Shown in pieces: positions 13,751 to 47,642 of a DNA stretch of 64,000 nucleotides. The position numbers and the translations under genes were made by a program. The notes beneath the pieces are model-generated. The model saw only the letters and a program-made list of their open reading frames with translations, did not search any database and was not told the origin of the DNA. Source of the DNA: Cellulomonas sp. NS3 (GTDB lineage: Bacteria; Actinomycetota; Actinomycetes; Actinomycetales; Cellulomonadaceae); contig NZ_CP103289.1 of assembly GCF_024757985.1 (NCBI RefSeq), positions 3,162,001 through 3,226,000 on the forward strand, written 5' to 3'. The stretch's first letter is position 1; each line of letters starts with the position of its first letter.

Positions 13751-14617
13751 TCAGGACGCGGGTGCGGGCGCCGTCGGGGGCGTGCCGAGGACGGTCGAGG
13801 CGTCGTCGGGGGCGGAGCCGTGGACCGCGGTGCCGTCGACGCGGGCCGCGTCCGCGGCGGCAGCGTCCGCCGCCGCGTCGGCGAGGGCCACGTCGGCCGG
13901 GTCGGCGTCCGCGGGGGTCGGCGCGGCGGCGTGCGCGAGCTCCTCGAGCGCCCGGTACGCGGCGGCGGCGGCGTGCTGCTCCGCGAGCTTCTTCGCCGGG
14001 CCGGTGCCGCTGCCGCGGACCTCTCCGCCGACGACCGCGTGCGCGGTGAACGTGCGCGCGTGGTCGGGGCCGTCGCCCTGGACGTCGTACGACGGCGCAC
14101 CCAGGCCGAGCGCCGCGGAGAGCTCCTGCAGGCTCGTCTTCCAGTCGAGGCCCGCGCCCAGGTCGGCCGCGGCCTCGAGCGTGGGACCGACGAGGCGGAG
14201 CACCACGCCGCGCGCGGTCTCGAGCCCGTGCGAGAGGTACACGGCGCCGAACAGCGCCTCGAGCGTGTCGGAGAGGATCGAGTCCTTGTCGTGGCCCCCG
14301 GTCGCGAGCTCGCCCTTGCCGAGCAGCACATAGGCGCCCAGGTCGAGCTCGCGCGCGACCCCCGCGAGCGCGCGCTGCGAGACGGTCGCCGCGCGCATCT
14401 TCGCGAGCTCGCCCTCGGACTGCGACGGGTGCCCGCGGTACAGCTCCTCGGTCACGACGAGCCCGAGGACGGTGTCGCCGAGGAACTCGAGACGCTCGTT
14501 CGTGGGGATCCCGCCGGCCTCGTGCGCGAACGACCGGTGCGTCAGGGACAGCACGAGAAGCTCGGGGTCCAGGAGGACCCCGAGCTTCTCGACGAGCTGG
14601 GCGGCTGCGAGGCTCAT
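13751..14617 (-). CDS. rnc: Ribonuclease III
   Basis: Double-strand-specific endoribonuclease for rRNA and mRNA maturation. 288 residues: RNase III signature [15 protein letters not shown] near residue 40, then a double-stranded RNA-binding domain with [23 protein letters not shown] near 205-230. After it comes an Ala/Asp-rich tail of about 55 residues not needed for the fold. ATG at 14617 ([13 protein letters not shown]) fits the family start; upstream in-frame sequence reads through rpmF and is not conserved-looking. Confidence 0.95.
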
Positions 14618-33235: not shown

Positions 33236-33272
33236 GTCGCCCGTCCGTGCAGAACCTGCACGGACGGGCGAC
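33236..33272 (-). terminator. Terminator hairpin after leuD
   Basis: Perfect 17-bp stem (GTCGCCCGTCCGTGCAG with its complement) with a 3-nt loop, between leuD and murA. It ends the leuCD transcript. Confidence 0.85.
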
Positions 33273-47343: not shown

Positions 47344-47396
47344 GGACCTGCTCGCCCGGCCCGGCGCGACGCAGAAACGCGAAACGGACCTTTTAC

Positions 47397-47410
47397 GTGA
47401 CGTTCATCAC
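47397..47410. promoter_or_regulatory. CRP/FNR-type palindrome upstream of the small gene
   Basis: GTGA-N6-TCAC inside CGTGACGTTCATCACG, matching the cyclic-AMP receptor family core. Its centre is about 48 nt before the start implied by a TAATAC hexamer at 47439-47444. The stretch 47344-47478 is otherwise AT-richer than its surroundings, as a promoter would be. Binding is inferred. Confidence 0.5.
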
Positions 47411-47478
47411 GAGGCAGCGCACCGCGGGGAATTGTCGGTAATACTTGCTGCACATCGACCACCGACATGGGAGGGGCC

Positions 47479-47577
47479 ATGGAGATGACGAGCACCGACG
47501 AGATGACCACCGCGACCGACGAGCGCGACGAGATCAGCTTCACGAGCGTGAGCAACCCGCGCCGCGTGCGCATCTGA
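47479..47577 (+). CDS. Isolated 32-residue small protein, unknown function
   Basis: ATG at 47479 preceded by GGGAGGGG, an unusually strong Shine-Dalgarno, then 32 codons and TGA. The N-terminal half is acidic with a repeated unit (MTSTDE then MTTATDE); the C-terminal half is ISFTSVSNPRRVRI, basic at the end, no Cys. A palindrome and -10-like hexamer lie upstream and an 18-bp terminator hairpin directly downstream, so it looks like a complete monocistronic gene. The acidic start and Ser/Thr-rich, basic end could suit a modified-peptide precursor or a regulatory peptide, but no modifying enzyme is nearby. An ATG 12 nt earlier is in frame. Confidence 0.6.
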   Translation: MEMTSTDEMTTATDERDEISFTSVSNPRRVRI

Positions 47578-47597
47578 CCAGCACCGACGCCAGGCTT

Positions 47598-47642
47598 CGA
47601 AGCCCGGCGCGGCCCCGCACCGCCGGGCCGCGCCGGGCTTCG
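47598..47642 (+). terminator. Strong terminator hairpin after the small gene
   Basis: Perfect 18-bp stem (CGAAGCCCGGCGCGGCCC with its complement), 9-nt loop, 20 nt after the small-gene stop. Strongest hairpin I see in the window. From here to 47790 nothing else is recognised. Confidence 0.87.

Follow-up and report, generated by a model that had tools for sequence, protein, structure and literature searches.

Stand-alone bacterial microproteins such as SgrT, AcrZ and MntS are shorter than 60 amino acids, are missed by length cut-offs and work in trans on a partner larger than themselves. The 32-residue protein predicted here resembles them in its size (<60 aa), in falling below length cut-offs and, as we infer, in acting in trans on a larger partner; it differs from them in that no sequence relation was found and in that it has no membrane segment. 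The dual-function RNAs SgrS/SgrT and Spot 42/SpfP share with our locus a small intergenic transcript that carries an ORF and a strong terminator, but here it is the protein, not the RNA, that is conserved. The RiPP or cofactor precursors PqqA and MftA, which have an invariant core, likewise combine a variable leader with a fixed C-terminal core, whereas the present gene has no adjoining maturation genes in the lineages examined and its product matches no family. Macrolide-dependent arrest peptides, finally, have an R/K-x-R/K motif, and an R-x-R also lies near the end of the short ORF studied here; unlike those peptides, however, the present family has no common downstream gene, its neighbour is often convergent, and V-x-N-P is equally invariant. 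We assign a probability of roughly 0.6 to the reading that positions 47391-47642 form a complete transcription unit with a single gene, whose 32-residue and probably cytosolic product belongs to a family of stand-alone microproteins that would act in trans via a conserved basic C-terminal motif.

Positions are those of the window, that is, the whole 64-kb stretch of DNA that was analysed (bases 3162001-3226000 of a 4.78-Mb single-contig genome). On inspection of the sequence, the small gene runs on the forward strand from an ATG at 47479 to a TGA at 47575-47577, thus occupying 47479-47577 (32 codons and TGA: MEMTSTDEMTTATDERDEISFTSVSNPRRVRI), and the conserved frame and synonymous substitution pattern described below make it almost certain that this stretch is coding. 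A Shine-Dalgarno sequence, GGGAGGGG, lies at 47469-47476 on the same strand, and a purine-rich one precedes the start in nearly all relatives. An alternative in-frame ATG at 47467, which would yield 36 aa, was rejected because the Shine-Dalgarno sequence lies downstream of it and the relatives begin at the residue matching 47479. An initial annotation of this DNA had proposed an isolated gene encoding a small soluble product, with its own palindrome, TAATAC hexamer, Shine-Dalgarno sequence, 32-codon ORF and hairpin; all of these parts were found where it had placed them, the product contains neither cysteine nor a hydrophobic segment, as had been noted, and the free-standing character of the gene is supported by neighbours that vary around a conserved frame.

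The same annotation had named a reading frame unconserved in relatives as a result that would speak against it; the opposite was observed, the frame recurring in 37 of 222 same-family genomes and in other families. A tblastn search with the single peptide recovered relatives in 28 of the 222 genomes, and a profile built from 26 of those relatives found the ORF in the 37 genomes, which represent 6 of 25 genera, with best matches of E 1e-14 to 1e-18 per genome; the peptide of the nearest gene-bearing relative (G001) is the same as that of Cellulomonas cellasea NBRC 3753. ORFs of 27-58 residues with the same motif are found in three or more further actinobacterial families, the tblastn and profile searches placing the motif in f14, f15, f47 and part of f36 (f14, f15, f36 and f47 being families that we take to be Kineococcaceae, Kineosporiaceae, Frankiaceae and Geodermatophilaceae). 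Since some 20-40 chance matches are expected at the cut-offs used in the order- and class-level searches, the weaker matches at these levels call for caution. Families f14 and f15 were accepted because their matches are found repeatedly within genera, go down to E 5e-7 and fall in short ORFs with a Shine-Dalgarno sequence and, mostly, a downstream hairpin, and f47 because the gene is present in 4 of 5 genomes with a best E of 8e-5 against a profile that contained no f47 sequences. The weakest family is f36, where a single genus has matches in 4 of 13 genomes (E 0.006-0.04, untrained profile); the f36 loci draw support from the short ORF, the Shine-Dalgarno sequence and the hairpin. Matches in f37 at E about 0.03 were dismissed as chance, because the upstream frame either has stops or lacks a small ORF of suitable shape. 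A phylum-wide sample of 397 genomes returned 13 matches besides the window's own (E 0.004-0.05), which is no excess over chance, and searches of phages, plasmids and viral contigs gave no convincing match. The gene is absent from most same-family genomes and from 5 of 7 same-genus genomes, a patchy presence that argues against a universally essential role; of the five same-genus genomes without the peptide, two have the S66 LD-carboxypeptidase gene that lies next to it in the window and in three that gene was not found, so the locus itself varies. Judged from these genomes, the small gene is accessory, not core.

Conservation falls on the end of the protein. Its last ten residues, SVSNPRRVRI (47545-47574, forward strand), hardly vary across several actinobacterial families and define the signature (S/T)-V-(S/A/G)-N-P-(R/K)-R-x-R-(I/L), of which every one of the 56 loci has the V, N, P and second R, and 54 of them the third R. 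The unit MTSTDE/MTTATDE, which had been read as a duplication at the N terminus, is by comparison missing from most relatives, which have DQQ, and the conserved part is SVSNPRRVRI. The motif itself served to find the loci, so that amino-acid conservation is partly ascertained, and the stronger evidence comes from the synonymous pattern and from features outside the query, because the search itself selects for the motif. Synonymous rates were compared, as the initial annotation had suggested, in 25 distinct Cellulomonadaceae sequences over their final ten codons, the differences being counted pairwise and not representing independent events. Of the 1370 codon differences in frame 0, 939 were synonymous and 431 nonsynonymous, against synonymous to nonsynonymous counts of 125/1134 (of 1259) and 1/954 (of 955) in the shifted frames 1 and 2. 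Differences at codon positions 1, 2 and 3 in this core numbered 492, 245 and 1095, and one serine position is encoded by both AGC and TCG. The promoter element, Shine-Dalgarno sequence and hairpin recur even though the search made no use of them. Sequence comparison shows the reading frame to be under protein-level purifying selection, which falls mainly on the ten C-terminal residues. In f15 and f36 the protein continues for 6-17 residues past the motif, which therefore need not be terminal.

The 32-residue protein matched no model above cut-off in Pfam, NCBIfam, PHROGs or PADLOC, and a literature search with motif variants found no match. A PDB profile match to a lysozyme entry (E 0.007 over 11 residues) was attributed to chance because no stretch passes alone, and a Rosetta-stone link sought in six genomes was rejected, larger motif-bearing proteins occurring there only at chance level besides the gene itself. 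By these comparisons this is an undescribed actinobacterial small-protein family that matches no catalogued one. Genes this short often fall below annotation cut-offs, and this one is nonetheless conserved between separate actinobacterial families; it adds to the actinobacterial small proteins an unlisted family whose ten-residue signature makes it directly testable.

Upstream of the gene, an alignment of 18 relatives reveals a conserved promoter-distal element, TTTTACGTGACGTTCATC, at 47391-47408 of the forward strand, with the consensus TTTTACGyG-NN-GTTCAyC. Exactly one site with 0-1 mismatch is present in each of nine genomes (9/9), always before the small gene, a count that speaks for specificity rather than discovery because the pattern was derived from these same promoters. 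The element is probably an activator site, centred about -52 relative to the predicted start; a centre anywhere between about -40 and -52 would suit such a role, and TTTTACGTGacGTTCATC upstream of the ORF is the candidate activator-site sequence. In the alignment of genus g4 the element runs on into a dyad-like TTCACCC...GGGGTGCG. The CRP-like palindrome GTGA-N6-TCAC of the initial annotation does exist (GTGACGTTCATCAC, 47397-47410), but as a conserved CRP-type site it did not hold up: it is lineage-specific, being identical in C. cellasea and lost in other Cellulomonas lineages, and another genus has at its position TTTTACGyGgaGTTCACCC without the dyad. The palindrome alone is weak evidence, since the window holds three copies, against 0.66 expected by shuffling, and 4 of 100 shuffles reach three. 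Membership in a CRP/GlxR regulon was rejected on the ground that the dyad is not kept in orthologous promoters, and a PhoP-box reading of GTTCACC on the ground that a second direct repeat was not seen by eye. A probable -10 region, TAATACT (47439-47445, forward strand), aligns with CAGACT/CAGGAT of the relatives; a consensus sigma-70 scan reported no promoter at TAATAC (47439-47444) and no consensus -35. Seven Kineococcus-like loci (L048, L049, L052, L056, L064, L067, L069) have a common 5' block, CACC..GGTGAGGACAnngnCGTCTGCGG, about 90-100 nt before the start codon, which may be an RNA element or an operator, and in four Frankia-like loci (L097, L098, L100, L112) about 90 nt upstream of the Shine-Dalgarno sequence and start are highly conserved.

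Downstream, a perfect hairpin with an 18-bp stem and a 9-nt loop (47598-47642, forward strand) is probably an intrinsic terminator without a strong T-run; a consensus terminator scan of the window did not list it, and no clear T-run lies behind it. Its description as the longest perfect hairpin in the window proved accurate, the next stem being of 17 bp, and in ten 64-kb sequences simulated with a first-order Markov model the longest stems were of 11-13 bp. Among the relatives, 41 of 55 loci show unusually stable structure (z < -2) in the 110 nt that follow the stop. Many members of genus g4, L008-L013, L019 and L021 among them, have an additional hairpin that lies after the stop codon and before the terminator, and two further perfect hairpins of 17 bp lie in the window at 33236-33272 and 14554-14591.

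The gene stands alone in every lineage examined, usually with a Shine-Dalgarno sequence and hairpin and with no conserved operon. In the window it is flanked by a 302-aa gene that matches nothing in Pfam and, downstream and co-oriented, by the S66 gene; clustering of 41 loci by shared neighbours revealed common neighbours mainly within a clade, and the flanking genes vary between clades and are often convergent. Pfam assignment of 20 flanking genes yielded GGDEF/PAS, APP1, histidine kinase, HtrA, P-type ATPase, MFS, FtsH-like protease, cupin, LigD primase, DEAD helicase, alpha/beta hydrolase, solute-binding protein, dehydrogenase, GNAT, KptA, DUF305 and LuxR, with three genes lacking a match, and no common partner gene or RiPP enzyme among them. 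In f15 (L078-L082, L125, L126) the gene sits between histidine kinase and HtrA-type protease genes, behind a response regulator.

Because the neighbouring genes change between lineages, the product very probably acts in trans; that it docks through its C-terminal motif, where selection falls, we consider somewhat better than an even chance, judging from conservation. Under such a mechanism, the short acidic and probably disordered N-terminal half would keep the protein soluble, the invariant basic V-(S/A/G)-N-P-(R/K)-R-x-R-(I/L) would dock on and modulate one larger partner, either another protein or a nucleoprotein complex (RNA polymerase or the ribosome, for example), and the dosage of the microprotein would be set by its own regulated promoter. 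Single-sequence AlphaFold gave no secondary structure and a pTM of 0.15, which fits, as weak evidence, a peptide that folds only on its partner.

The main rival to a docking microprotein is a cut-out peptide, an idea already raised by the initial annotation, whereby a variable acidic N-terminal leader would be removed from a RiPP, cofactor or signal precursor and a core V-(S/A)-N-P-R-R-x-R-L, perhaps modified by enzymes encoded elsewhere, would be released as from precursors with an invariant core. A variable leader before a near-invariant core rich in Ser/Thr/Arg is what such a precursor would look like, and the f15 and f36 extensions could be trimmed; we nevertheless regard it as unlikely, for no maturation, protease or export gene is adjacent or shared among the lineages examined (clustering over 41 loci, Pfam of 20 flanking genes, and those of the nearest genes that were listed, judged by eye), and the protein has no Cys, double-Gly or secretion signal and no NCBIfam/Pfam precursor model. 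Slightly less likely again is that the nonapeptide V-(S/A)-N-P-(R/K)-R-x-R-(L/I) is itself active as an intracellular or released signal or cofactor precursor, in which case one nonapeptide would be used across several actinobacterial families, with its processing and receptor genes elsewhere in the genome. A stand-alone gene whose flanks vary by clade and are often convergent argues against a clustered RiPP precursor and against a cis-acting leader. The latter would use its R-x-R end to stall the ribosome, in the manner of drug-dependent +x+ arrest peptides, and so control read-through past the hairpin into the gene that follows; the basic R-x-R near the C terminus, with the stop codon and, about 20 nt later, a hairpin behind it, and the co-oriented S66 peptidase gene in the window, are compatible with it, but the downstream gene is clade-specific and convergent in f14, f47 and many Cellulomonas and Actinotalea loci, and the motif ends 6-17 residues short of the stop in f15 and f36, leaving this explanation very improbable.

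That the transcript is in the first place a regulatory, dual-function RNA, to which the peptide is secondary, had also been envisaged and appears improbable, if less so than a stalling leader. A very stable 3' hairpin, a predicted stand-alone transcript of about 200 nt and the 5' blocks conserved within the f14 and f36 lineages would suit an RNA; conservation, however, tracks codons, the untranslated parts are unalignable between clades and hold only clade-specific blocks outside the ORF and terminator, the fold of the whole transcript reaches a z of only -1.95, mostly owing to the terminator, no conserved RNA structure was found besides that hairpin, and Rfam had no match at the locus. The short length and patchy presence of the gene might, lastly, suggest a chance ORF or a decaying fragment, a notion that we find scarcely credible in view of the conservation of the protein, its codon pattern and the conserved flanking signals, and that the conservation data already contradict.
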